In this document: in pieces, positions 1,282 through 15,798 of the stretch
How positions within the stretch are numbered: position 1 is the first letter of the stretch
Layout of the letters: each line of letters starts with the position of its first letter
Source: an uncultured Chloroflexus sp.
Lineage (GTDB): Bacteria > Chloroflexota > Chloroflexia > Chloroflexales > Chloroflexaceae
DNA length: 44,199 bases
Direction: 5' to 3'
Assembly: GCF_937951745.1 (NCBI RefSeq)
Contig: NZ_CALFBQ010000063.1
Location: forward strand, 1-44,199
Notes under the pieces: generated by a model
Told to the model about the DNA's origin: nothing
Database searches by the model: none
The model's input: the letters and a program-made list of their open reading frames with translations, nothing else
Position numbers and translations under genes: made by a program

Positions 1282-2121
1282 CTAGGCCGGCGCCGCTTCA
1301 CGCGGCGGCGGCAGATTGCCGCCAGGAGTCGAACGGCTTAACACTACGATTAGCGTAACAATCCCGATGACGGTCAGAATACCGGCGATTCGCACAATGG
1401 TCATAATGGTCGGCGTATATTTGCCGGTGATCGGATTATACTGATAGCAGAGGAGCAATATCTGATCGATTGGATTGCCCACCTTGCCGGCTGATGCCTC
1501 GACAATACCGAGCCGGACATCAGACACATTAAACTCGATCCCAAAAAAGTACCGCGCAGTTTTTCCTGCTGGCGTCAATACCACCATACCGGCAGCGTGC
1601 GCATACTGCTTGATCGTCTCGTCGTAGAAATACTTGAACCCAATCGCATCAGCCACTCGCCGAATCTGTTCTTCGCTACCAGTGAGAAAATGCCAACCAT
1701 TTTCACTGCCGGCACGAGCATAGCGCTGGACGGTCAATGTCTTAACGCCTGCTGCCATCATTGGCGTCTCGAGCGGATCGATGCTGATATTGACTACCTG
1801 AAAATCACGTCCCGCTGTGAGGGGGACTTGTTGTAGCGCAGCCAGCACTCCTTCGCGCACAAACGAGCAGAGCATGGGGCACTCGTAGTAACTCATGACG
1901 AGAATGACCGGCTGACCAGCAGCAAAGAATTGACCAAGCCGCACCTCAACCCCTTGCTCGTCTATGAAGATAGCATCGAGCGGCACCTGCTCGCCCATGC
2001 GCTGCTCGAAGGCAACGCCATCAGTCGGATTGGGCTTAGTACCTTGTGCCAACGCCACTACCGGCGTAAGCAAGAAGGCTGCCAACCAACCGATCACCGT
2101 CAGAGCAACCCAACCTCTCAT
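1282..2121 (-). CDS. SCO1/SenC/PrrC family copper chaperone
   Basis: SCO proteins deliver copper to, or reduce, the CuA site of cytochrome c oxidase subunit II, which fits the coxB gene just downstream. The 279-residue protein begins with a signal or anchor segment (residues 5-25). A thioredoxin-like fold follows, carrying the CPMLC copper site (C81 and C85, the CxxxC of the family) and a conserved histidine at H175 in the motif YAHAAG. A hydrophobic segment near residues 243-264 suggests a second, C-terminal membrane anchor, which is common in the longer SCO-like proteins of cox operons. The ATG start at 2121 follows the upstream small-protein stop by 32 bases. Confidence 0.9.
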   Translation of the reverse strand: MRGWVALTVIGWLAAFLLTPVVALAQGTKPNPTDGVAFEQRMGEQVPLDAIFIDEQGVEVRLGQFFAAGQPVILVMSYYECPMLCSFVREGVLAALQQVPLTAGRDFQVVNISIDPLETPMMAAGVKTLTVQRYARAGSENGWHFLTGSEEQIRRVADAIGFKYFYDETIKQYAHAAGMVVLTPAGKTARYFFGIEFNVSDVRLGIVEASAGKVGNPIDQILLLCYQYNPITGKYTPTIMTIVRIAGILTVIGIVTLIVVLSRSTPGGNLPPPREAAPA

Positions 2122-2571: not shown

Positions 2572-3234
2572 CTAGCGGTGGCACACGAAACAGTTGGTCA
2601 ACCGGCCATCGGTGGGAATTTGGTACTCAATTACCAGTTGCTGCCGTTGGGCCAGTGACAACGCATTCACATCCCACTCCATATTGAAAACCTCTTCGCG
2701 CGGGCGAATGTGATCTTCCGGCGCACGATGGCAACCTAAGCACCATCCCATATAGAGCGGTTGGGCTTTGGCAGCCAACTGTTGCTGGTCAATCCGGCCA
2801 TGGCACGAGCTACAGCCGATACCTTTAGCCACATGCACCGAATGGTTGAAGTAAACAAAATCGGGCAGATCGTAAATCCGGTTCCACACGACCGGCTCGC
2901 CGGTCTGATAACTGGTGCGCACCACCTCTAGCAACGGGCTGTTCGTCCAAACTTGCGAGTGGCACGACATACAGGTTTCGGTGGCCGGAAAACCGGCGTG
3001 TGCCGCCTTCTCAACCGTCGCATGGCAATAGCGGCAATCGATCTTCAACTCGCTGACGTGGTGCTTGTGGCTAAAAGGAACTGGCTGGGCTTTAGCAACA
3101 CCAACATCAGTGTACCACGGCGAAAGGTAAAACCCGACCATGGCGGCAATGATGCCGATCACCAGCATCACAAGGCCAAAGAGGCTGGCCAGAAAGATCG
3201 CGTTGGCATTACGCGGAAAGATTTGGGCAGACAT
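2572..3234 (-). CDS. actA: Alternative complex III subunit A, pentahaem cytochrome c
   Basis: ActA is the multihaem cytochrome that carries electrons from ACIII to periplasmic acceptors. The 220-residue protein has one N-terminal membrane span (about residues 13-35) and five CxxCH haem-binding sites: CRYCH, CMSCH, CSSCH, CLGCH and CFVCH, the last at the very C-terminus. Additional histidines (SHKHHVSEL, FNHSVHV) are plausible distal haem ligands. Five haems and about 220 residues match the ActA family. The start is an ATG at 3234, 24 bases after the actE stop. The neighbours ActB and ActE make the assignment firm. In this operon ActA follows ActB and ActE instead of leading, which differs from the classical actABCDEFG order. 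Confidence 0.9.
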   Translation of the reverse strand: MSAQIFPRNANAIFLASLFGLVMLVIGIIAAMVGFYLSPWYTDVGVAKAQPVPFSHKHHVSELKIDCRYCHATVEKAAHAGFPATETCMSCHSQVWTNSPLLEVVRTSYQTGEPVVWNRIYDLPDFVYFNHSVHVAKGIGCSSCHGRIDQQQLAAKAQPLYMGWCLGCHRAPEDHIRPREEVFNMEWDVNALSLAQRQQLVIEYQIPTDGRLTNCFVCHR

Positions 3235-3258: not shown

Positions 3259-3864
3259 CTAGCGGCCGGCTCTGACTTGCTGCAACTCAGCCTCGGTCAA
3301 TAAGGCAATATCGGCATTCTGGCTCAATTGCAAGGCGCGCACATACGCGGCAATTGCCCAGCGATCTTCGGGTGGAATACGTGACGCATAGCTATACATT
3401 TTGCCAATCCCGTTCGTGATGACGTCAAAGAAGTAGCCAACCTGTACTGTCCGCAACCGATCGCTATGCAAACTTGTGACTGTCATTGGGCCACGATACG
3501 CGATAACCCCCTTACCATCGCCGACCAATCCGTGGCATGGCGCGCAGAAGGCGTTGTAGCGCGACTGGCCATGTGCAAGCAGCGCCGCGTCAAGCTTGAT
3601 CTCTGGCGGCAATTGATCGGCCAATTGCCCCTCGATCCGCCCAGTCATCAACGGCGATTCAGGGTTATAGCTGTTCATCGGCACCGTATTGGCTGGCGGC
3701 GGCTGCATTGCTCGTCCGTCTGGGAAGAAGTTGCTGACCGCGTTCGGCTTATACTTTGGCTGATCGTACATATCAACGTGACAAGCGACCAGCAGCAAAC
3801 AGAGCGGCAACCACGCGAGCCGCGCTACTCGGGTAAAGAACGATCTACGGATAGCGTGCATCAT
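3259..3864 (-). CDS. actE: Alternative complex III subunit E, monohaem cytochrome c lipoprotein
   Basis: ActE is the single-haem cytochrome of ACIII. The 201-residue protein opens with a hydrophobic signal ending in the lipobox LVAC (about residue 28), so it is probably a lipid-anchored exported protein. The mature N-terminus has the DGRAMQPPPANTVP stretch that is typical of ActE. A single haem site CAPCH lies in the middle, and a downstream methionine (in GKMYSYASRIPPEDRW) is the likely sixth haem ligand. Two adjacent ATG codons (3864 and 3861) can serve as start. It is 50 bases downstream of actB, where many ACIII operons have the NrfD-like membrane subunit ActC instead. Confidence 0.9.
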   Translation of the reverse strand: MMHAIRRSFFTRVARLAWLPLCLLLVACHVDMYDQPKYKPNAVSNFFPDGRAMQPPPANTVPMNSYNPESPLMTGRIEGQLADQLPPEIKLDAALLAHGQSRYNAFCAPCHGLVGDGKGVIAYRGPMTVTSLHSDRLRTVQVGYFFDVITNGIGKMYSYASRIPPEDRWAIAAYVRALQLSQNADIALLTEAELQQVRAGR

Positions 3865-3914: not shown

Positions 3915-6900
3915 CTACCCGGCGTGACCACTGCCATCAAGCGCCTGATCAGGATTCCGTACTCGCGCTAGATAACTCGTGCGCGGTTTGAGATTTAGCT
4001 CATCGAAGACGGTATAGTTATGCGGCTGCTGCTTAATCTGGGCCACCCGGCTGTTTGGATCGTTAATATCGCCAAAGATGATCGCTTCGGTCGGGCAGAC
4101 CTGCTGGCAAGCGGTGGTGACCTCGCCATCGCGAATTGGGCGATTACCCTCAACTTTGGCCTTAATCCGCGCCGCGCTGATCCGTTGTACGCAGAAGCTG
4201 CACTTCTCCATCACGCCACGGTTCCGCACCGTCACGTCAGGGTTGCGCATCAGTTTTAAGCTCTCGCTGGTGAGATCGCTGTACTGCAAGAAGTTAAACC
4301 GGCGTACCTTGAAGGGGCAGTTGTTCGAGCAGTACTTGGTACCGACACAGCGGTTATAGACCATATTGTTGATGCCTTCGGCGTCATGCACCGTCGCTGC
4401 AACTGGGCAGACCAATTCGCACGGCGCTTGCTCGCAGTGGGCACAGGTCATTGGCATCATGTAGGCTTCTGGATTATCGAGGTCTGCGCCAGCGTAGTAG
4501 CGATCAATCCGAATCCAGTGCATTTCGCGACCACGGGCCACTTCCTGCTTGCCAACAATCGGGATATTGTTTTCAGCTTGGCAAGCCACGACACAGGCGT
4601 TACAGCCAATGCACGCCGAGAGATCGATCACCATGCCCCACTGGTTGCCGGTGCTGTAATCAAAACCGGGCAAGAGCGATTGGTATTTTGGTTTTTGTTC
4701 GGGTGAACCGTATTTCTCGGTGTAGACCTCTTTGGCAATGTACTTCGGATCTTGCTTAAAGCGGGCAAACTCACCAACCCGCACTACATCACGCCCTTCC
4801 AGCGTCCAGTGATCTTGCGTGCTGACCAATTGATAACGTTCTTGAGTTGCGCTCACGCTGACGTTAGTCACGAACCACGGACTATCACTCTGCCGCAAGC
4901 GGTAGACGTTGAAACCGGCTCCTTCAGCAACCCGCCCACCGTGAGTACGACCATAGCCGAGGGTTACGGTAATGGTATCATCAGCGTGGCCGGGCACAAT
5001 CCAGATCGGCAGCCGAAGCGTGCCGACCGGTGTGGTCACATCTATCATCCGTCCGTTCTCGCGAATGAGACGCTCGAGCGCCTGCTCACGCGCGCGACCG
5101 GGGGCAGCGAGATTTGCCGGATCGAAGGGAAGACGCAACAAACGAATGGCAGTGCGCGGGCTAACTAATGCGGCATTATCCCACGTGAGCTTGGTCATTG
5201 GCCGCGGCAGCTCTTGCAACCAGCCATTATTTGCGAAGCGACCATCCCAGATCGCCGGATCAGGACGGAAATTCAACTCAAGCTCGCTCGCTGGCGCTGG
5301 GGCTTGCAAAGACAAGTCAGGCACCAACTCAACCGACAGCGCTTCAAACCGCGAATCGGCAATGACGCCGGTGCTAAGCGCCCGCTTGAAGAAATCATCG
5401 AATGCAACCCCTTCAAGGCCGGTCTGCTGCTGCCAGTAGTTACGGACAATATCATAGTCAGTCGTTCCGACAGAACCGTTCAATAACGCCAACAACTCGT
5501 GAGCAGTGCGCGAACCGTAGAGCGGCATAATCAGCGGTTGAACGATACTCGCCGTGCCGTCATAGCTACGCGCGTCCGACCACGACTCGAGCGAATGAGC
5601 TAGCGGAATGAACCACGTCGCCATCGCCGCTGTCTCATCTTCGTAAGGATTGAGCACAACGATCTGCTTGGCCAACCGCATCGCCTCGGCAAAACCAAGA
5701 TCGGCCGGCGCAGTAAAGGCTGGATTGCTATCAATAATCACCAGTAACTCAACGCTACCGGCGCGCAAATCGTTCACTAATGTCGCGAGATCCTGCGGAT
5801 CGGACGGCTGGGCGACCGGATCGGTATACTCAACCGTCGTGCCGACAGCGCCAAGCTGCACATTAATCGCATGCGCAATCGCATGTACCACCGGCGGTTG
5901 TTCTTCACCAACCACAACGACCGCTCGATTGCCGGCACGACGCAGATCGGCAGCGACCACCGTAGCCCACTTCTGCTGTGCTTCGCTAAGACCGGTCGGC
6001 GGAGCAACTGCCGAAACACCTAACTGATTCGCAACCGCAGCGGCCAATTGGCCGATCAGGCTTGCCTTCACCGCCAGCCGGTGATCGGCAATTGCGCCAA
6101 TGGGCGAAAAGACCGGCTCGGCAACGTACAACCGACTCATCGCCTCGGTATTGGCGCGAACACGGCGGCGCTGCATCAGATCGCGAGCGTAGCGCACACG
6201 CCCCGGCCCCTCGCTGACAACGTCGGCATCGAGCGCCAAGACAACCTCGGCCTCGGCAAAGTTGTAGCGCGGTTCGTATGGCTTGCCGAAGGCCAACCCA
6301 GTGCCGGCATAGGTATTGCTACGACCAACCGGATCGTGTTGCACCCAACGCGCCGCCGGGAAATTCGTCAGCAATTCAGCAATCTGGGCTCGCAATGTCG
6401 GCGAGGTAATGGTCGGCGTCAACAACCGCATCCCTTGACCTTGCAAGGCGCGCTGCACCTGCAAGGTCTCGGTAATGGCGGTGACGAAGCTTTGCCACGT
6501 ACTCAGCAAGCCACTCCGACGCACTGTCTCAGGCCGATCGGGATCGTACAGGGCGAGCAGTTCTGCCTGCGCAAAAGCATCGGTTGCGCCGAGGCTGGCC
6601 GGATGGACCGGATTACCCTCGATCTTGATCGGACGTCCTTCCCGGCTCTTCACCGTCACACCAAGGGCAAACCCATCAAGCGTTACAGCGGTCGCGTAAT
6701 AGTTAGGAATGCCCGGCATCTGATCGCGTGGTGCGCGGGCAAATGGGGCAACCTTTTCTTGCGGCTGCCTCATTGCAAAGGTACAACCCGACAAACCGGC
6801 AAGCGCCAGCGATGCCCCCATCAGCTTGAGGAAGGTGCGGCGTGAAACCGGATCGGCTAGCTCGCTCGCACCTTGCGGAAATTCACGCGCGACTAGCTCA

Positions 6901-7025
6901 CGGAACGCAGGCGTGTCGACCAATTGGTCGAGCGAACGCCAGAACTGTTTGCCGCGCGCCTGTTGCAGTTGAGCGCGCACGGCCTCGATTTCGGACGCAG
7001 CAGGGTGAAGATTGATCTCACTCAT
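3915..7025 (-). CDS. actB: Alternative complex III subunit B, molybdopterin-oxidoreductase-like Fe-S protein
   Basis: ActB is the large peripheral subunit of ACIII, the menaquinol:electron-acceptor oxidoreductase that replaces the bc1 complex. The 1036-residue protein has a twin-arginine-type signal (SRRTFLK at 61-67) running into a hydrophobic stretch that ends in a lipobox-like LSGC at C81. Residues of about 100-720 form the molybdopterin oxidoreductase-like part, which in characterised ActB carries no Mo cofactor. The C-terminal third is an NrfC-type Fe-S domain with four cysteine clusters: C805, C808, C811 and C815, then CAHCEQAPCELVC, CVGTKYCSNNC, and CSFC paired with CQQVC. Characterised ActB binds three [4Fe-4S] clusters and one [3Fe-4S] cluster. 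It is the first gene of the operon, preceded by a promoter-like sequence at 7107-7134. Confidence 0.92.
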   Translation of the reverse strand: MSEINLHPAASEIEAVRAQLQQARGKQFWRSLDQLVDTPAFRELVAREFPQGASELADPVSRRTFLKLMGASLALAGLSGCTFAMRQPQEKVAPFARAPRDQMPGIPNYYATAVTLDGFALGVTVKSREGRPIKIEGNPVHPASLGATDAFAQAELLALYDPDRPETVRRSGLLSTWQSFVTAITETLQVQRALQGQGMRLLTPTITSPTLRAQIAELLTNFPAARWVQHDPVGRSNTYAGTGLAFGKPYEPRYNFAEAEVVLALDADVVSEGPGRVRYARDLMQRRRVRANTEAMSRLYVAEPVFSPIGAIADHRLAVKASLIGQLAAAVANQLGVSAVAPPTGLSEAQQKWATVVAADLRRAGNRAVVVVGEEQPPVVHAIAHAINVQLGAVGTTVEYTDPVAQPSDPQDLATLVNDLRAGSVELLVIIDSNPAFTAPADLGFAEAMRLAKQIVVLNPYEDETAAMATWFIPLAHSLESWSDARSYDGTASIVQPLIMPLYGSRTAHELLALLNGSVGTTDYDIVRNYWQQQTGLEGVAFDDFFKRALSTGVIADSRFEALSVELVPDLSLQAPAPASELELNFRPDPAIWDGRFANNGWLQELPRPMTKLTWDNAALVSPRTAIRLLRLPFDPANLAAPGRAREQALERLIRENGRMIDVTTPVGTLRLPIWIVPGHADDTITVTLGYGRTHGGRVAEGAGFNVYRLRQSDSPWFVTNVSVSATQERYQLVSTQDHWTLEGRDVVRVGEFARFKQDPKYIAKEVYTEKYGSPEQKPKYQSLLPGFDYSTGNQWGMVIDLSACIGCNACVVACQAENNIPIVGKQEVARGREMHWIRIDRYYAGADLDNPEAYMMPMTCAHCEQAPCELVCPVAATVHDAEGINNMVYNRCVGTKYCSNNCPFKVRRFNFLQYSDLTSESLKLMRNPDVTVRNRGVMEKCSFCVQRISAARIKAKVEGNRPIRDGEVTTACQQVCPTEAIIFGDINDPNSRVAQIKQQPHNYTVFDELNLKPRTSYLARVRNPDQALDGSGHAG

Positions 7026-7106: not shown

Positions 7107-7134
7107 ATTATAGCAGAAGCCGTGGATTGATCAA
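7107..7134 (-). promoter_or_regulatory. Candidate sigma-70-type promoter of the ACIII operon
   Basis: On the minus strand TTGATC (7134 to 7129) and a perfect TATAAT (7112 to 7107) are separated by 16 bases. The predicted transcript would start near 7100, about 75 bases ahead of the actB ATG. A second TATAAT lies at 7096-7091. The -35 matches consensus at four of six positions. Assignment is by sequence match only. Confidence 0.45.
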
Positions 7135-7355
7135 CACTGTGCGTTCGGTTCCTGTTACATCACGCTGTCACATCGGCTAGGCTTGACAAGTGTGGTCGCA
7201 CTCGATCCTAGACCGTTTTACTAAGATTGTCACCTATCCTGTTTTCTGCTGTGTGATGAGATTTGGTAGCGGTATTACAGTACTGACGCGATATTTGTGC
7301 CAATTGATGCAATTATAATAACATACGTTGAACTATCTTCGCAACATGAACAAGC

Positions 7356-7411: not shown

Positions 7412-8815
7412 TTAGGCAGTCGTTGCAGATTTTCGATACGCTTCATCGAGCAATTCGATAATATATCGCACCTGCACCTTCTTACCACGCCGACGCAGCT
7501 CACCAGCCAGTTGGAGGGCGCAGCCGGGGTTGGCCGTCGCAATAATTTCAGCTCCAGTTGTCAGCGCATTGTCGATTTTACGTGCGCCAAGGCTCATCGC
7601 CATGTCAGGCTGGGTGACATTGTAAATACCGGCACTGCCGCAACACAACGACGACTCAGGCATCTCTTTCAGCGTGAGGCCGGGGATAGCCGTGAGCAGC
7701 GCACGCGGTTGGGCACTAATTCGTTGGGCATGCACGAGGTGGCATGGCTCTTGGTAGGTAACGGTGAGATCGAGCCGACCCAACGCTGCACGGTTGAAGT
7801 CGATGCCAGCGAGAAATTCATGCACATCCTTCACCTTCGCGCTGAACCGTTCTGCCCGCTCGCGCCACGCCGGATCGTCGTGCAAGAGATGGCCGTACTC
7901 TTTGAGGGTGCTGCCGCAACCGGCAGCATTGACAATGATGGCATCCACTCCCAAACCTTCAAACGCGGCAATATTACGCCGTGCCAACTCGCGCCCGCCA
8001 TCGAGATCGCCGCCGTGGGTATGCAGCGCACCGCAGCAACCTTGATCGGGTGGGACGATTACCTCACAACCGTTCTTGCGTAATACACGAATTGTCGCCT
8101 CGTGAACGTGAGCGAAGGCGGTACTCATAATACAGCCGGTGAGTAGAGCGACGCTGTAACGCCGTTCGCCTTCAGCAGGCAATATCTGTCCCTGCGGGAC
8201 GCTGAAGTGGTCGCTGATCGGGGGCAACATTGCCTCAGTGTCGGCTAACCCAAGCAGCTTGAGGAGACCGCTCTTGCGCGCCAGCCACTGCGCGCCGCTG
8301 CGCTGGTAGAGGCGCATCATCGCTGAAAAGAGGCGGAAGACCTCCATCCGCTTAAACAGCACCCCAAAGACGGCGCCACGCAACGCGCGTTGCCAGAGCG
8401 GACGCGGCGGCAACTTCGGCTCCGGCGCCCCGGGAGTCGCCGGCGGGCCGGCCTTGCCAGCGCGGGCTTGCTCAATTTGAGCCCGGCTCGCTTCAAGGAT
8501 CGCGCCGTACTGCACCCCCGACGGGCACACCGCTTCGCACGCCCGACAGTTAAGACAGAGGCTCATCTGCTCTTGAAAGACCTCGCTGGCGAGGCTGATC
8601 CGACCTTCATCTACCGCCTTCATCAAATAGATCCGGCCACGCGGTGAAGCCATCTCAAGGCCGGTCTCGCGGTAGGTCGGGCACGACGAGAGGCATAACC
8701 CACAGTGAACGCAGGTGTTGATAATGTCAGAGCTGGGTTTATCTTTTGCGCTAAAGCCGATCATCAGCGGAATGACCGGCTGCGATGCAGGCGACGAAGG
8801 TTGAGTCACTGTCAC
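7412..8815 (-). CDS. glcF: Glycolate oxidase iron-sulfur subunit
   Basis: GlcF passes electrons from the flavin subunits GlcD/GlcE to the membrane quinone pool. Near the N-terminus are two [4Fe-4S] ferredoxin motifs, CVHCGLCLSSC (C35, C38, C41, C45) and CLNCRACEAVC (C87, C90, C93, C97). They are followed by two cysteine-rich CCG domains with QGCCGALHTHGG and SSLCCGSAG, the usual GlcF/HdrD architecture. I chose the GTG at 8815 (467 residues) because AGAGGAGA lies seven bases ahead of it. An in-frame GTG at 8839 has no comparable site and overlaps the stop of the upstream fusion gene. The gene is 23 bases after the glcD-glcE fusion, so the two are almost certainly co-transcribed. Confidence 0.9.
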   Translation of the reverse strand: MTVTQPSSPASQPVIPLMIGFSAKDKPSSDIINTCVHCGLCLSSCPTYRETGLEMASPRGRIYLMKAVDEGRISLASEVFQEQMSLCLNCRACEAVCPSGVQYGAILEASRAQIEQARAGKAGPPATPGAPEPKLPPRPLWQRALRGAVFGVLFKRMEVFRLFSAMMRLYQRSGAQWLARKSGLLKLLGLADTEAMLPPISDHFSVPQGQILPAEGERRYSVALLTGCIMSTAFAHVHEATIRVLRKNGCEVIVPPDQGCCGALHTHGGDLDGGRELARRNIAAFEGLGVDAIIVNAAGCGSTLKEYGHLLHDDPAWRERAERFSAKVKDVHEFLAGIDFNRAALGRLDLTVTYQEPCHLVHAQRISAQPRALLTAIPGLTLKEMPESSLCCGSAGIYNVTQPDMAMSLGARKIDNALTTGAEIIATANPGCALQLAGELRRRGKKVQVRYIIELLDEAYRKSATTA

Positions 8816-8838
8816 AGGTGTTTCTCCTCTGATGAACA

Positions 8839-11460
8839 CTAATCAGCAAACCAAAATGCGCCCGGATGCATCCGGTGATAGGGGTCAATCGCAACTTTGA
8901 GCGCACGCATACGGTCAAGCGCCGCCGGCGGCTGGCCCCACACCGGCGCCGGCGGGGTGAGCGCAGGTGGGGCGACGAGCAAGCGAGTATGCGGAAATGC
9001 AACGACTAACTCGGTGTGATAGGCAGCCACTTGCGCTGGATCGCCGGTCACTTGAAGGTAGATGATGCCGTTGAGCGCATGAGCGGTGACGGCAACCGCC
9101 ACCCGCTGGCGTTGAGCAGCCTGCTCGATGGTCTGAATAGCCGCAGCAAAACGGGCCGGCCAGACGCTCAGCCGCAGCAACGCCAGATCGGCAACCGGCG
9201 CATAGCGAGTGACGGTCTGCCGCCAGAACGCGGCCTCATCGGCAGTGCGGACAACCGACACTGCGCCGCCGCGCTGCTGAGCCAGCGCCGCCGCTTCGCG
9301 CAGATGGCGCTCGACCGCCGCCGGATGGCCTTCGGCCCGCATCGCCACCACCACACTATTGCTATCGGCCAGATATTCGACCGCTGTGGGTAACAACCGC
9401 GAGGCGGCCAGCGCGTCGAGCAGAGCGCATGCCGTCGCCGAATCGGGCATCTGCGCAAGCAGGGTCGCGCTATCTGGCGGCTGAGGAAAGACCTTAAGCG
9501 CTACCGCAGTGATCAGGCCAAGGGTACCGGCGCTGCCAACGTAGAGTTTCACCAAATCATAGCCAGTGACATTCTTGACCACCTGTGCGCCGAGCCGCAC
9601 CAGTTCGCCATCGGGTTCGAGCACATCGAGCGCCAGCACCCAATCACGGAACGAACCGTAACCCAAACGGCGCGGGCCATCGGTCGCCATCGCCGCCAGA
9701 CTGCCGATGCTGCGCTGCGGATCAGCAATATCAAGCGGAAGCATCTGGTTATGCGGCGCTAGCAATGCCTGCAACTCGGCCAACGAGGTACCGGCGGCCA
9801 CCTTGATCGTCAGATCGTCTGGCTCGTAGAGCAGTGGCCCGTGCCAGCGCAAGGTTGAGACCGTTACTGCATCCGGCGCACAAGCCGTCGCGCCGCCGGT
9901 CGGAATCACTGCCACGCCAGCGTGATGGCAAGCATTGAGCAACTCGGCAGCATCAGCCGGCGTGTCCGGGGCGACAAACGCACCGGGAGCCGGCGCAGCG
10001 GCAGCGCGGGCTGGATCATGCTGTTGCAAGCGGGCAGCGCGCGCAGCAGCCAACTCGGCGGGGGTCGTGTCAGCGGGAAAGATCTTGGCCGGGTTAAAAC
10101 AGCCGGTTGGATTGAAGACCTGATGAATCGTAGCGTGCAACTGCAACTCAGCCGGTGAGAAGAAGCGCGGCAGATACTCGCACTTTTCCAACCCGATGCC
10201 GTGCTCACCGCTCACCACACCGCCATGTTCAATGCTCAGTTCAAGCACACTTGCTGCCAGATCATGCGCCCGCCGGCGCTGATCAGGGTCACGCGGATCG
10301 TAGAGCACGAGCGGGTGCAAATTACCATCACCGGCATGGGCGACATTGCACACCTCTAGCCGGTACTCGGCGCGCAACCGCTCGACCTGCTCCATCATTA
10401 GCGGTAATTTGGTGCGCGGCACTACCGTATCAACCAGATAGTACGCCGGGGCAAGGCGACCAATCGCGCCGGCTACCGACTTCCGCGCTGTCCAGACCCG
10501 GGCCTGTGTTGCCGGATCGCGGGCCGGGCGCAGATCAAAGGCGCCGTGCGCGCGGCAGATGGCGATAATCTGATCGAGCTGATCGTCAAGGCCATCATTG
10601 ACACCATCAACTTCGATAATCAGCGCGGTCGTACCGGTCGTTTCGGGCAGACCCAGTTCATACGCCTGATTGACGGCCCGGATCGCGTTGTGATCCATCA
10701 ATTCGAGCGAGGTCGGCAGCGAACCGGCAGCAATCACAGCGCTCACTGCCGCCGCCGCCGCCACCACCGACGGGAAAAGCGCCAACACCACTCGCACCGA
10801 TTCAGGCAGTGGTGTCAGGCGCACAATAGCCGCCGTCACCACCCCTAGCGTGCCTTCGCTCCCAGCAATGAGACCAGTCAAGTCATAGCCAACCGGATCA
10901 AGCACGCCATCGCCCGTCCAGTAACGTTGGCCGGTATGATCAACCACCTCGACCGCTAACACATGATTGCTGGTCACGCCATATTTGAGGCAATGGGGGC
11001 CGCCAGCGTTGGTAGCGATATTGCCGCCGATGGTGCTGGCCCGTTGGGAAGAGGGATCAGGCGCGAACTGGTAGCCACGAGGAGCGAGATAGGCATTGAG
11101 TTCAGAGTTGACCACACCGGGTTGCACCACTGCCAAGCGCGAACGCAGATCGACCGACAGAGTTTTATCCATACGCGCAGTGCTGATCATCACGCCGCCA
11201 CGCAGCGGCACTGCGCCGCCGGCAATCCCGGTGCCAGCGCCACGGGCCACGATCGGCATGCCAGCGCGGGCAGCCAACCGCACCGCCTCGGCCGCCTGCT
11301 CGGCGGTGGCCGGCAGCACTACCACGTCCGGCGGATGCGAGACCAGCATACTGCCATCGGAGTCATACGTCAGCAGCGCTTCGGGGGCAGTAACAACGGC
11401 ATCAGCCCCCAGCGCAGCGCGGAGATCATCGATCAAGGTTGCCGGTACAGCAACAGACAC
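8839..11460 (-). CDS. GlcD-GlcE fusion: FAD-linked glycolate/2-hydroxyacid oxidase
   Basis: The 873-residue protein joins two flavoprotein subunits that are normally separate. Residues 1-470 are a full GlcD-type FAD-linked oxidase: FAD-binding motifs VARGAGTGIAGGA, PDPSSQ, TIGGNIATNAGGPH and GSEGTLG, then the C-terminal cap domain with GDGNLHP and SGEHGIGLEK. An Ala-rich linker (about 471-495) leads into a GlcE-type domain (496-873) with GPRRLGYGSFRDW, VVKNVTGYD and GSAGTLG. The start is a GTG at 11460 with AAGGAG eight bases upstream. Free glcD and glcE copies lie directly upstream, so the locus encodes both subunits twice. Substrate is inferred to be glycolate from the glcDEF context; D-lactate or another 2-hydroxyacid is possible. 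Confidence 0.88.
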   Translation of the reverse strand: MSVAVPATLIDDLRAALGADAVVTAPEALLTYDSDGSMLVSHPPDVVVLPATAEQAAEAVRLAARAGMPIVARGAGTGIAGGAVPLRGGVMISTARMDKTLSVDLRSRLAVVQPGVVNSELNAYLAPRGYQFAPDPSSQRASTIGGNIATNAGGPHCLKYGVTSNHVLAVEVVDHTGQRYWTGDGVLDPVGYDLTGLIAGSEGTLGVVTAAIVRLTPLPESVRVVLALFPSVVAAAAAVSAVIAAGSLPTSLELMDHNAIRAVNQAYELGLPETTGTTALIIEVDGVNDGLDDQLDQIIAICRAHGAFDLRPARDPATQARVWTARKSVAGAIGRLAPAYYLVDTVVPRTKLPLMMEQVERLRAEYRLEVCNVAHAGDGNLHPLVLYDPRDPDQRRRAHDLAASVLELSIEHGGVVSGEHGIGLEKCEYLPRFFSPAELQLHATIHQVFNPTGCFNPAKIFPADTTPAELAAARAARLQQHDPARAAAAPAPGAFVAPDTPADAAELLNACHHAGVAVIPTGGATACAPDAVTVSTLRWHGPLLYEPDDLTIKVAAGTSLAELQALLAPHNQMLPLDIADPQRSIGSLAAMATDGPRRLGYGSFRDWVLALDVLEPDGELVRLGAQVVKNVTGYDLVKLYVGSAGTLGLITAVALKVFPQPPDSATLLAQMPDSATACALLDALAASRLLPTAVEYLADSNSVVVAMRAEGHPAAVERHLREAAALAQQRGGAVSVVRTADEAAFWRQTVTRYAPVADLALLRLSVWPARFAAAIQTIEQAAQRQRVAVAVTAHALNGIIYLQVTGDPAQVAAYHTELVVAFPHTRLLVAPPALTPPAPVWGQPPAALDRMRALKVAIDPYHRMHPGAFWFAD

Positions 11461-11695
11461 TATAGATACTCCTTATGATATGCTCAGCGTTTGTGCCTCT
11501 ATGCTACAGTCTTGCCCCTCGGTTTGCCATCGTCGGGCCGGGTGTTCGGCCCTAAAGGGCCGGGCTATCCTTATGCAGCCCGCTGACGCAGGCTGAATGT
11601 GCGATACGTTGTGTACGTGCTCGGGTGCCCAACCTAGAAGGACGGGATCAGCCCGATCCGTTGCGTGGGCGAGAGCTTGAGCCGGGTTGTTACAT
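11461..11695. repeat. Gap between glcE and the fusion gene with a GC-rich palindrome
   Basis: The other junctions measured in this locus are 4 and 23 bases, but this one is 235 bases and holds no gene. It contains CGGCCC-TAAA-GGGCCG (11547-11562), a perfect six-base-pair hairpin, and a second GGGCCG at 11535-11540 that could pair with the same left arm. The layout suggests a mobile palindromic element or an mRNA-processing site placed inside the operon. Confidence 0.5.
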
Positions 11696-12988
11696 CTATC
11701 CTGCTTGATCAACCACAAACCGGCCCGGATTGAGCAGATCGGCGGGATCGAACTCCTGCTTGATTCGGCGCATCAGATCAAGGTTAGCGATGTGCGTGCC
11801 GAAAGCCGGCAGCTCGGCGATCAATGCCAGCGGCGCGGCGAGCAACATCGTCTGGGGCGCGGCTTTGAGCAGGGCAGCGTGCCACTCACGCAACGCTTCC
11901 GCCGGGCCGCGCACACGCAGATAGGCCACACCGTTCAGTGCGCGCGCCGTACCTTGCATCGGCAGATTGGCGCGCTGGGCAGCCGCGCGCGCCGCTGCCA
12001 GTATATTGCTCAGATCGGCAGGCAGGCAGGTCACACGCACTACCAGCTCATCAGCGGCGAGCGTTGCCGTCTGCGGTACATCATTGATCGCGTTCCAAAG
12101 CTGTTCATGGGCGGCGTCGCGCAGCGATTCGGCGCTAACGCCGGCTTGCCGGGCAAACGCAGTGACATCGCGCACATGGCGCTCAACCGCCGCTGGCAAG
12201 CCCTCGCTGCGCACCGCCACCGCACACGGCGCACCAGCGAGATCAACCCCCTCAAGATACTCAACGGCCACCGACACCAGTTGGCTCGCAGCAATCGCAT
12301 TGACCAATTTCCACAGCGGGGCCGGAGTCGCGGCGCGGCAGAGGATGCTAGCTGCAGCCCGTGGCTGCGGAATCAGCTTGAAATTGGCTGACGCAATGAT
12401 TGCCAGCGTACCGAAGCTGCCGAGATAGAGCTTCATCATATCGAAGCCGCTGACGTTCTTGACCACCATCCCGCCAGCTTTCGAGACGCGCCCAGTCGCT
12501 TCAACGACGCGAATGCCGATCAGCAAGTCGCGAGCCGAGCCATACCCCAACCGGCGTGGGCCATCCATTGCGGTGGCGAGCAAGCCACCAATCGTTGCCT
12601 GCGCCGGCAACGGGCAATCGAGCGGCAACATCTGGCCATTGGCAGCCAAAGCGGCGCTCAGTGCGCCCAAGGTCATACCAGCCTCGACCGAAATAGTCAG
12701 GTCGTCAGGGGTATAGTCGAGAATACGGTTTAGGCGACTGGTCTCTACAATCACAAACGGGCGAGCCGGCGGACGGCCCCACGTCTGCTGGGTACCACCG
12801 CCCCACGGTACAATCGCCATTGGTTCGGCAGCGAGACGGGCCACCGTCTGGGCCATCTCTTCGAGTGAACCGGGAGCAATCGCCAACAATGGCGTTTGGC
12901 CGTAGATGCGGCGATCGACAGGATGTTCACGGACGTACTGCTCACCGCTTATTGCTATGAGATCGGCGCGCAACAGTGTGAGGTTCAT
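11696..12988 (-). CDS. glcE: Glycolate oxidase FAD-binding subunit
   Basis: GlcE is the smaller flavin subunit of the GlcDEF complex. The 430-residue protein has a single FAD-binding type 4 domain with MAIVPWGGGTQQTWG, PDDLTISVEAGMTLG, DGPRRLGYGSARDL, VVKNVSGFDMMK and GSFGTL, and lacks the full cap domain of GlcD. It aligns by eye with the second half of the downstream fusion protein (for example GPRRLGYGS and the VVKN(V)(S/T)G(F/Y)D motif occur in both). Its ATG is four bases after the glcD stop, so the two are tightly coupled. The C-terminus ends with EFDPADLLNPGRF, a family-typical flavin-contact motif that is less clear in the fusion. Confidence 0.88.
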   Translation of the reverse strand: MNLTLLRADLIAISGEQYVREHPVDRRIYGQTPLLAIAPGSLEEMAQTVARLAAEPMAIVPWGGGTQQTWGRPPARPFVIVETSRLNRILDYTPDDLTISVEAGMTLGALSAALAANGQMLPLDCPLPAQATIGGLLATAMDGPRRLGYGSARDLLIGIRVVEATGRVSKAGGMVVKNVSGFDMMKLYLGSFGTLAIIASANFKLIPQPRAAASILCRAATPAPLWKLVNAIAASQLVSVAVEYLEGVDLAGAPCAVAVRSEGLPAAVERHVRDVTAFARQAGVSAESLRDAAHEQLWNAINDVPQTATLAADELVVRVTCLPADLSNILAAARAAAQRANLPMQGTARALNGVAYLRVRGPAEALREWHAALLKAAPQTMLLAAPLALIAELPAFGTHIANLDLMRRIKQEFDPADLLNPGRFVVDQAG

Positions 12989-12992
12989 GGGC

Positions 12993-14441
12993 TTAACTCG
13001 ACTTCAAAGCACTCCACGCCACCCCTGACCGGCGCAGCGCAGCCAGCTCGCCGCAACCGCGCCCCTTAGGGAAGACCTTACCGGGATTAAACAGATCGTG
13101 CGGGTCGAAACTCTGGTGTAACCCGGCCATCGCCGCTAGATCATCCGTCGTAAAGAGCAAGGTCATATAATCTTGCTTCTCCACGCCGATGCCATGCTCA
13201 CCACTGATGACGCCACCGAAATCAATACTCACCTTCATCACACTAGTGGCTGCTTCAAGCGCGCGCTGATTTTGGGAACGATCGCGGCGGTCAAAGAGGA
13301 TAATCGGATGCAAGTTACCATCGCCGGCGTGGAAGACATTAGCAATCGGCAGACGAAACTCGCGCGAAATCCGGCCCACTTCATCCATCGTCTGCGGTAG
13401 TTTGGTGCGCGGCACCACTGTATCAACCAGATAGTAGGTCGGCGCGAGGCGGCCCATCGCGCCAAACGCATTCTTGCGCGCCGCCCAGACCTGATTCTGC
13501 TCGGCCATCGTGCGGGCCGGACGAACATCGATCGCGCCGTTGCGCCAACAGATCGCGGTAATATCGTGCAGCAGCTCGTCGAGACCATCTTCGACGCCGT
13601 CAACCTCGATCAGCAACGCAGCACCAGCGGCTTCCGGCAGCCCTAACTTGTACATGTCATTGACGGCCTTAATCGCTAGCCGATCCATAATCTCTAGCGC
13701 CGCCGGCAACAAGCCGCTCGCGATCACTTGTGATACCGTGTTGGAAGCGCCGGCAATATCGGGGAAGAGCGCCAACACTACCCGCACCGCTTCGGGGAGC
13801 CGGGTTAGGCGCAACCATGCCGCCGTGACAAAACCGATCGTCCCTTCCGAGCCAGTGATCACGCCAGTCAGATCATAGCCGGGGGTATGCGCACTGCCAT
13901 CACCCGTCCACACAATCGAACCATCGGGCAACACAACCTGTACGGCCAACACATGGCTGGCGGTAATGCCATACTTAAGGCAATGAGGGCCGCCGGAGTT
14001 GTTGGCGATATTGCCGCCGACAGTGCAGGCTTTTTGCGACGAGGGATCGGGGGCGAATTGGTAGCCGAACGGTTTGAGATACTGTGACAGCTCCCAATTA
14101 ATCACACCGGGCTGGCACAACACACGGCCATTGGCGGTATCAACCTGTAAAATCTTATCCATGCGGGCAGTAGAAATGACAATGCCACCCTGCATCGGGG
14201 TTGCGCCACCCGAAAGGCCGGTGCCAGCGCCACGCGGCACGACTGGCATGCCGGCGCGAGCGGCTAGCCGGACAATCGCTGATACTTGCTCGGCACTAGT
14301 TGGCAAGGCCACCACGTGCGGCTCGTGGGTATCCATCACGCAACCATCAGCATCGTAGGTCAGCAACGCATCGGGTGTGGCCACCACGCCGCGCGGGCCA
14401 AGAATGCGCTCAAGTTCTGCGATCAGTTCAGCACGGTTCAT
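12993..14441 (-). CDS. glcD: Glycolate oxidase FAD-linked subunit
   Basis: GlcD oxidises glycolate (or a similar 2-hydroxyacid) at its FAD. The 482-residue protein has the complete family layout: the FAD-binding domain with VPRGAGTGLSGGA, PDPSSQKACTVGGN and GSEGTIG, then the cap domain with VFHAGDGNLHP and SGEHGIGVEK, ending with FNPGKVFP. It is closely similar over its whole length to residues 1-470 of the downstream fusion. The start is an ATG at 14441 with AGGAG six bases upstream. It is the first gene of the locus, and a divergent gene lies beyond the 352-base upstream gap. Confidence 0.9.
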   Translation of the reverse strand: MNRAELIAELERILGPRGVVATPDALLTYDADGCVMDTHEPHVVALPTSAEQVSAIVRLAARAGMPVVPRGAGTGLSGGATPMQGGIVISTARMDKILQVDTANGRVLCQPGVINWELSQYLKPFGYQFAPDPSSQKACTVGGNIANNSGGPHCLKYGITASHVLAVQVVLPDGSIVWTGDGSAHTPGYDLTGVITGSEGTIGFVTAAWLRLTRLPEAVRVVLALFPDIAGASNTVSQVIASGLLPAALEIMDRLAIKAVNDMYKLGLPEAAGAALLIEVDGVEDGLDELLHDITAICWRNGAIDVRPARTMAEQNQVWAARKNAFGAMGRLAPTYYLVDTVVPRTKLPQTMDEVGRISREFRLPIANVFHAGDGNLHPIILFDRRDRSQNQRALEAATSVMKVSIDFGGVISGEHGIGVEKQDYMTLLFTTDDLAAMAGLHQSFDPHDLFNPGKVFPKGRGCGELAALRRSGVAWSALKSS

Positions 14442-14793: not shown

Positions 14794-15798
14794 ATGCAAT
14801 TACCACCTTCACTACAGCGCGCCCTAGAGCGTGTGATCGCCACCCAGCCGGCGGCGACGCTTGAGCAGACCGCCACTGCATTATCGAATCGCTACCGGGA
14901 AGCGAGCACCGGCAGCACGCCGGTCATCACTTCGCCGCTTGAGGCAATAGCGTATGCGGCATGGCGCATGCCGGCCACCTACGCCGCGCTACGAGCTGTG
15001 TTCAAGCGGTTGGCAGAGGCACAACCCAATTTTGCTCCGACCCGCATGCTCGATGTTGGCGCGGGCAGCGGTGCCGCAATCTGGGCCGCTGCCGAACAGT
15101 GGCCGTCGCTGCGCCGGATCGTCGCGATCGAACGGCAACCGGCCATGGCGCGCCTCGCTGAGCAATTGGCCGCCGGTGCCGATCTACCTCCCATCACGTG
15201 GCAGCGCAGTGATGTGCTTGCCCTCGACCGGCTGCCAGAAAGCGATCTCGTGGTCGCCGGGTATGTCTACGGCGAGATCGAGCCGGCGGTGCGTATACTA
15301 TTGCTCAGCCGGCTCTGGAAAGGAACAAACGGTGCGTTGGTGATGGTTGAACCGGGCACCCCGGCAGGCTATGCAACTATGTTGAGTATCCGCAGTGAAC
15401 TGATCAAACGTGATGCCAAGATACTAGCGCCGTGCCCGCACACCGGTGAGTGCCCGCTCGCCGCCCGTAATGATTGGTGTCATTTTGGGCAACGGATTGC
15501 GCGGCCTGCCTTCCAACGTCGCCTCAAAGGCGCCGCAGCGCCGTTTGAAGACGAAAAGTTCGCTTATCTCATTGCGGCACGCCGTGGCGTGCCGCCGGCT
15601 AACGGGCGGATCGTGCGCCACCCCGTTACCCGCAGCGGGCGGATCGAACTCCAAGTTTGCACTGCGCAGGGCCTGCAACACATCACCATCACTCGTAGCC
15701 AAGGCGACGCATGGCGACGAGCGCGCGACAGCGCATGGGGTGATGGGTGGCAAAACGAGCATCTGTCTCAGGCTATAGGCGATAGTGAAGCAGAGTGA
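14794..15798 (+). CDS. Rsm22/METTL17-family SAM-dependent methyltransferase with Fe-S cysteine motif
   Basis: Rsm22-family proteins are associated with the small ribosomal subunit and have a methyltransferase fold. The 334-residue protein has a SAM-binding motif MLDVGAGSGAAIWAA (residues 85-99), an acidic strand-2 end (AIERQ) and a motif-IV-like region around YVYGEI. The family-specific C-terminal part carries C214, C220 and C229 in the stretch CPHTGECPLAARNDWC, plus a distant C289. This spacing resembles the four cysteines that hold a [4Fe-4S] cluster in mitochondrial METTL17. The start is an ATG with AAGGG about eight bases upstream. A histidine kinase gene follows 57 bases later on the same strand. 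Whether this protein methylates rRNA or only aids assembly cannot be told from sequence. Confidence 0.82.
   Translation: MQLPPSLQRALERVIATQPAATLEQTATALSNRYREASTGSTPVITSPLEAIAYAAWRMPATYAALRAVFKRLAEAQPNFAPTRMLDVGAGSGAAIWAAAEQWPSLRRIVAIERQPAMARLAEQLAAGADLPPITWQRSDVLALDRLPESDLVVAGYVYGEIEPAVRILLLSRLWKGTNGALVMVEPGTPAGYATMLSIRSELIKRDAKILAPCPHTGECPLAARNDWCHFGQRIARPAFQRRLKGAAAPFEDEKFAYLIAARRGVPPANGRIVRHPVTRSGRIELQVCTAQGLQHITITRSQGDAWRRARDSAWGDGWQNEHLSQAIGDSEAE

Follow-up and report, generated by a model that had tools for sequence, protein, structure and literature searches.

Why would a bacterium keep two pairs of genes for the flavoprotein subunits of a GlcDEF-type 2-hydroxyacid dehydrogenase, one of them fused into a single chain, beside one gene for their common partner GlcF? 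This arrangement occurs in an uncultured Chloroflexus sp. on contig NZ_CALFBQ010000063.1, of which we analyzed positions 1 to 44,199 (44,199 nucleotides, hereafter the window). On the minus strand, glcD1, glcE1, a glcD2-glcE2 fusion and glcF are followed by genes of alternative complex III (ACIII). The second copy has been changed: it is fused, its substrate pocket has apparently opened and one of its flavin adenine dinucleotide (FAD) loops is gone, so the enzyme has probably been rebuilt rather than merely doubled. The parts on which this argument turns are as follows.

12993-14441, minus strand: glcD1, 482 amino acids, FAD- and substrate-binding subunit; Pfam FAD_binding_4 and FAD-oxidase_C
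11696-12988, minus strand: glcE1, 430 amino acids; FAD loop PWGGGTQQTWG and C-terminal NPGR intact
12776-12808, minus strand: intact FAD loop of GlcE1, residues 61-71
8839-11460, minus strand: glcD2-glcE2 fusion, 873 amino acids, GTG start
10075-11460, minus strand: GlcD2 half, residues 1-462; FAD loop, Arg326, Tyr340, HAGDGNLH and GEHGIG kept
10471-10473, minus strand: Ala330 codon of D2, aligned with Phe341 of E. coli GlcD, Trp351 of mouse LDHD and Thr390 of human D2HGDH
9970-10074, minus strand: D2/E2 junction, about 35 residues (463-497), stop-free, limits drawn by eye
8842-9969, minus strand: GlcE2 half, residues 498-873; FAD loop and NPGR lost, remaining conserved stretches kept
9874-9903, minus strand: remnant of the E2 FAD loop, PTGGATACAP, residues 520-529
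8854-8868, minus strand: HPGAF in place of the NPGR[FY] end of E2, residues 865-869
7412-8839, minus strand: glcF, 475 amino acids; Pfam 4Fe-4S dicluster domain and two CCG stretches

The initial annotation had given this order, including the 873-residue fusion, for positions 8839-14441, an interval that holds glcD1, glcE1 and the fusion but not glcF. As in the E. coli glc operon, homologous D, E and F subunits appear in the order D, E, F with shared catalytic motifs, and Arg337, Phe341 and Tyr351 of E. coli GlcD correspond to Arg322, Phe326 and Tyr336 of D1. Whereas E. coli has one D, one E and one F, all unfused, the window has two D, two E and one F with the second pair fused, and adds an alanine at the gate of D2, an E2 without the FAD loop, and the ACIII genes downstream. 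Both D1 and D2 contain FAD_binding_4, FAD-oxidase_C, the catalytic arginine and the HxGDGNxH and GEHG motifs (in D1, HAGDGNLH and GEHGIG are kept alongside Arg322, the gate residue Phe326 and Tyr336), and Pfam finds two FAD_binding_4 stretches and one FAD-oxidase_C in the fusion. Identity is 60% between D1 and D2 (464 aligned residues) and 42% between E1 and E2 (371 aligned residues). The spacings are 4 bp from glcD1 to glcE1, 235 bp from glcE1 to the fusion, a 1-bp overlap of the fusion with glcF, and 386 bp from glcF to actB; within the genus, the glcE1-fusion gap (11461-11695 in the window) varies from a 1-bp overlap up to 501 bp. GlcD, GlcE and GlcF are the best NCBIfam families, with every score under its equivalog cut-off (GlcD, 460.3 for D1 and 521.2 for the fusion against 567.9; GlcE, 160.5 for E1 and 197.0 for the fusion against 284; GlcF, 301.8 against 333), and we therefore label the enzyme GlcDEF-type rather than a certified equivalog.

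The fusion itself is real. The initial annotation had allowed that a stop codon might separate the halves near 10020. However, the frame has no internal stop in any of the eight genomes of the genus (80-100% identity), so a sequencing error at this point is very unlikely, and we rejected a frameshift or sequencing artifact at the D2/E2 junction. Named carriers of related fusions include Chloroflexus islandicus (95%), Oscillochloris, Chloroploca and Viridilinea. Frame changes split the fusion of genome G013 (L044 8084-10904) and glcE1 of G052 (L122 5708-6998) in draft assemblies and are probably assembly errors. All five parts of the locus are under purifying selection, which is weakest on E2, its range touching that of E1 (omega by NG86 in six pairs of four close genomes: D1, 0.009-0.021; D2, 0.017-0.037; F, 0.018-0.033; E1, 0.066-0.101; E2, 0.096-0.130). 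The mean omega of E2, which exceeds those of the other four parts although its range overlaps that of E1, would suit a second set that is redundant or decaying and serves dosage only. Yet omega is far below 1 and reaches only 0.017-0.037 in D2, no genome of the genus has an internal stop, and the histidine and glutamate of the metal site are kept in the window-type rows listed, which makes mere dosage or decay scarcely probable.

What, then, has changed in the second copy? The two GlcD domains had been suggested to differ in hydroxyacid specificity, and a substitution at the substrate gate lends this some support at the level of sequence. Phe341 of E. coli GlcD, which sits four residues after Arg337 (numbering checked), is described in the available excerpt of one study as pushed in by Tyr351, and the two are proposed, from docking on a predicted model, to restrict the enzyme to glycolate (PMC10589216). 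Excerpts of the literature place Trp351 of LDHD and Thr390 of D2HGDH at the same position (PMC10589216, PMC7801405). The gate trio is Arg322, Phe326 and Tyr336 in D1 and Arg326, Ala330 and Tyr340 in D2; Ala330 aligns with the tryptophan of LDHD and the threonine of D2HGDH, and Tyr340 takes the position of GlcD Tyr351. The gate residue is phenylalanine in 28 of 28 D1 rows and alanine in 22 of 22 window-type D2 rows (21 labelled as fused plus the cut row L133; G049 is without this part). Phenylalanine is also present in all three fusions from genomes without D1 and E1 and in all five members of a third set of fusions, while a second fusion class of the phylum has alanine in six of seven and valine in one. 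We infer that the pocket of D2 is wider than that of D1.

Which substrate might fill it? Lys401 and Thr390 of human D2HGDH, which bind the second carboxylate, are replaced in D2 by Leu342 and Ala330, and because leucine stands in the place of the lysine, D-2-hydroxyglutarate is not our first guess. Compared with the large hydrophobic subsite B of LDHD (Trp351, Ala363), D2 has Ala330 in the place of Trp351 and Tyr340 in that of Ala363. Mouse LDHD, human D2HGDH and A. woodii LctD belong to the flavoprotein family of the D halves and are among the best PDB matches listed. They differ in that they have no attached GlcE-like half, that LctD partners EtfAB, and in the gate residues of LDHD and D2HGDH given above.

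The second change lies in E2. Both flavin domains of the fusion had been credited with complete motifs, which holds for the D2 half but not for the E2 half, which has lost both its GGGT FAD loop and its terminal NPGR. The pattern by which loops were counted was drawn up with knowledge of the sequences. By this pattern, all 32 assessable separate rows have the E1-type loop (PWGGGTQQTWG-like) intact; three further rows were not assessable, of which L044 10050 is a piece of a fusion and L139 probably is too. Among 29 fused E rows, 20 have lost the loop and 8 have it intact; 1 was not assessable. Fragments from G023 and G024 were excluded (the G024 pieces have an intact loop and a gate phenylalanine; the loop region of G023 is unreadable), and G013, with its fusion split by the frame change, stands outside the counts; its loop, read separately, is intact. 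All 20 losses are in window-type fusions (8 Chloroflexus, G010, G011, G018, G019, G044, G045 and G047-G052), so that with G013 included the loop is lost in 20 of 22 fusions of this type and intact only in G008 and G013. The NPGR end is also gone in 19 of the 20, the remaining one being not assessable. The kind of lesion differs by genus: a deletion in Chloroflexus, a PCSD-like stretch in several g5 genomes and GGGTPPEL in the Chloroploca kind. Since the lesions differ and G013 adjoins Chloroflexus in the D tree, with weak support (87/74), the data suggest repeated erosion of the loop, or its repair in G013 through exchange with E1.

In human D2HGDH, the beta2-beta3 loop takes a direct part in FAD binding, according to the available excerpt of its structural description (PMC7801405). 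We read this loop as the counterpart of the one lost from E2, and E2 is predicted to be without FAD. With the FAD loop of E2 gone, one complex with four complete flavin domains, as first imagined for this locus, is unsupported. A predicted model of the fusion has a mean pLDDT of 82.3; pLDDT at the flavin loops is lower in D2 and E1 than in E2, which with alignments of 16 and 17 rows is suggestive only. In a fold search with this model, the 50 matches listed cover roughly half of it (TM-score by query 0.39-0.49) and come without ranges, and thus carry no information on E2.

Building on the observed parts, motifs, history and selection, we infer a complex, a flavin count, an electron path and substrates. 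Our preferred reading, in which our confidence falls just short of even, is a rebuilt GlcDEF-type 2-hydroxyacid dehydrogenase in the form of one asymmetric, GlcF-centered complex of D1, E1, D2E2 and F with three flavins. An ancestral glcDE pair would have been duplicated, and both genes of one copy would then have fused. D1, with its gate phenylalanine, would oxidize glycolate and reduce its local FAD, and D2, with its gate alanine, would take a larger D-2-hydroxyacid and reduce a local FAD of its own. E2 would no longer carry FAD and would act as a structural partner leaning on the flavin of E1. Electrons from both D domains would travel via the FAD of E1 and then the 4Fe-4S clusters of GlcF to menaquinone, ACIII and cytochrome oxidase. 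A bolder version holds that E2 is a flavin-free scaffold, that D2E2 depends on E1, and that two formerly alternative complexes are now one obligate complex feeding ACIII; this we regard as possible but doubtful.

Genome G018 (99% complete) is informative about the role of E1. Its E1 and D2E2 genes lie side by side with GlcF on another contig, and no D1 was found in the genome or in the 3.4 kb upstream of E1. Retention of E1 after the loss of D1 fits a role for E1 in supplying the flavin that E2 appears to have lost. G056, from the same genus, carries this set too. It adds little weight, since its contig stops 0.2 kb upstream of E1 and GlcF was not found.

Several observations weigh against the three-flavin complex. 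G008 and G013 keep an intact E2 loop even though D1 and E1 adjoin their fusions, and in G047 and G049 the loop is lost although E1 was not found, so that the link between loop loss and E1 holds in only 18 of 20 cases. These four genomes rule out a strict rule by which the presence of E1 means a lost E2 loop. The contigs of G047 and G049 break off within the fusion, which in three sister genomes of that genus is adjoined by D1-E1; the absence of E1 may therefore reflect missing assembly. In the mildest losses (G010, G044 and G045), the glycines are retained (GGGTPPEL, GGGLPPEL) and the rest is gone. The genomes without D1 and E1 belong to two genera, so the pattern of gate and loop amounts to few evolutionary events rather than independent tests. 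In 22 of 38 family loci, no ActB was seen behind glcF; the downstream sequence is shorter than 3.2 kb in 5 of them. No D or E gene stands beside GlcF in 15 of 15 loci of family f4 (upstream flanks of 167-7,935 bp, two of them shorter than 1 kb) or in the 6 loci of family f1 with at least 1.8 kb upstream (the flanks of f1 loci L148 and L149 are too short to judge), and GlcF may thus have further partners. Finally, E2 retains the conserved stretches VVKNVTGYDL and DGPRRLGYG near the flavin site. These stretches, like the mean pLDDT of the fusion model, would suit an E2 that binds FAD in an altered manner within a complex of four flavins. Against this, the loop is deleted or replaced differently among genera, NPGR is lost alongside it, and its presumed counterpart in D2HGDH is directly involved in FAD binding; we assign altered binding a low probability.

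The distribution of the subunits bears on another explanation, in which D1-E1-F and D2E2-F are self-sufficient alternative complexes that compete for one GlcF and differ in substrate. D2E2-F occurs without D1-E1 in G016, G021 and G046, and D1-E1-F occurs without a window-type fusion in G015, G053 and G055. Because each set is seen without the other, each can probably work with F alone. The different gate residues of D1 and D2 agree with such a division, and G047 and G049 would favor it if E1 were truly absent from them. However, in G016, G021 and G046, where a fusion and GlcF were found and neither D1 nor E1 (completeness 86-97%), loop, NPGR and gate phenylalanine are all intact, so that the E2 loop is preserved in three of three sets without E1, compared with its loss in 20 of 22 window-type fusions. 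Additionally, a self-sufficient D2E2-F would in Chloroflexus have to operate without an E flavin. We consider such alternative complexes unlikely.

How did the two sets arise? Near-identical, short and fragmentary rows were removed before trees were built. In the D tree (54 rows), 25 fused D2 rows form one clade (99/100), one of them, L133, being cut by a contig end and assigned by hand. Fused D2 and separate D1 together form a 47-row clade (100/99), within which D1 is not resolved as a single clade; D2 thus groups with GlcD1, and an origin of the fusion in another hydroxyacid dehydrogenase family was rejected. In the E tree (52 rows), 22 fused E2 rows form one clade (92/96) that adjoins 24 E1 rows (99/98); this E2 clade is not starred, and the tree program issued a warning about long branches that meet at the second fusion class. 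Because the D and E trees agree, as do wider row sets, the history is most simply one duplication of the glcDE pair and one fusion, both before the genera of the family split, much as the initial annotation had proposed. Family f4 has the D1-E1 kind (4 genomes in the trees), with no window-type fusion among the matches listed for 5 f4 genomes.

The second GlcD-GlcE fusion class of Chloroflexota (L057, L059, L061, L062, L065, L066 and L074) likewise joins D and E halves in one chain. It is 40-43% identical to the window fusion, does not adjoin a D1-E1 pair in the loci examined and, as represented by L057, L059 and L062, forms a separate clade in both trees, and so is most simply an independent fusion. 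In a wider D tree, a history with two fusions takes fewer changes than one with a single fusion and two splits, as long as the fragment L086 is not treated as separate, with the proviso that change counts alone cannot separate gain of a fusion from its loss. On the simplest account, the phylum has gained D-E fusions at least twice. This makes fusion alone unremarkable, and one could suppose an ordinary gene fusion of unchanged function with neutral changes at gate and loop. The gate alanine in every window-type D2 and in no D1 argues otherwise, even if it may trace to one event, and we find a neutral fusion very unlikely.

In the second class, the E halves of L057 and L061 have an altered FAD loop, as if fused E halves lose the loop repeatedly. 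Several other Chloroflexota families, outside the trees, have uninterrupted frames of 877-988 codons with matches to both halves. The third set (L054, L055, L063, L064 and L067) branches within the first fused clade of the D tree and resembles a duplicate of the fusion that arose later. It shares some genomes with the window type, has PDPASW instead of PDPSSQ, and combines its gate phenylalanine with an intact FAD loop in 4 assessable members; no close GlcF lies alongside in the sequence examined.

That one GlcF would be available to two flavoprotein sets is borne out across the family, in which 38 of 41 genomes have exactly one close GlcF (identity 66-100%, E-value no higher than 1e-60). Of the other three, G022 has part of a GlcF gene at the end of a contig, and none was found in G042 or G056. 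Five family genomes additionally carry a distant GlcF match (43-47%), and D1 at an identity of at least 73% was found in 25 of the 41. The lone-GlcF loci are L151-L165 in f4 and L142-L147 in f1; in G012, GlcF adjoins a citrate synthase gene.

Where would the electrons go? The gene block runs on beyond what had been described at first, into a set of respiratory genes.

3915-7025, minus strand: ActB of ACIII, 1036 amino acids, 386 bp after glcF
3259-3864, minus strand: mono-haem cytochrome c, ActE by gene order
2572-3234, minus strand: multihaem cytochrome c, ActA by gene order
1282-2121, minus strand: SCO1/SenC protein of the same respiratory gene block

With actB, E, A and SCO1 following downstream in the same orientation, and a second ActB elsewhere in the genome (58% identity, contig C2), the block corresponds to a Cr ACIII operon, although the contig ends at base 1 and bounds the view of it. 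In 16 of 38 family loci, ActB comes immediately after GlcF, at a spacing of 94-482 bp. In the glcF-actB gap of the window lie three sigma-70-like promoter matches (7107-7344, minus strand; one scores 10/12), so actB may have its own start; over 8 kb there are 6 such matches, compared with a mean of 2.8 after shuffling.

This block is partly in print. In the available excerpt of Tang et al. 2011 (PMC3150298), the C. aurantiacus block is described as a Cr ACIII operon (Caur_2132/2133-2144) with K, L and M in front, in the same order as here: K is a FAD-dependent oxidase, L (Caur_2134) is named D-lactate dehydrogenase, M is a Cys-rich Fe-S protein, and actB, E, A, G, SCO1 and COX follow. By gene order, K, L and M (actKLM) match GlcE1, the fusion and GlcF. 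The same excerpt lists 2133 and 2135, but not 2134, under glcDEF and proposes glycolate assimilation with a link to the 3-hydroxypropionate bicycle; its account of L contains no mention that we saw of a GlcD-GlcE fusion, a duplicated pair, a gate or an FAD loop. In C. aggregans, genes listed as glcDEF (Cagg_1528, 1530-1531 and 1892-1893) peak in transcription at midday in a hot-spring mat, as reported in the part of that study available (PMC8004040), and the skipped number, Cagg_1529, would by gene order be the fusion. A literature search on Caur_2134, Cagg_1529 and Caur_2132 matched only Tang et al. 2011, and in searches on GlcD-GlcE fusion, GlcDEF structure and GlcE we recognized no title or abstract opening as describing the window locus. 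The locus is real, conserved and partly published; the variant of GlcDEF that it encodes is new. On its other side, a divergent gene (14794-15798, plus strand) encodes an Rsm22-family methyltransferase (Pfam 6.7e-81), a homologue of which lies upstream of glcD1 in 7 of 8 Chloroflexus loci. Rfam gave no match in the window at the gathering threshold.

Taken together, these results offer a testable answer on the role of components K, L and M in the respiratory ACIII operon of Chloroflexus, in which the gene labelled D-lactate dehydrogenase becomes a GlcD-GlcE fusion with a changed pocket. The genomes also form a natural series (D2E2-F alone, D1-E1-F alone, both together, both with a lost E2 loop, and E1 kept after the loss of D1) that opens the division of labor between the flavins of GlcD and GlcE to experiment.

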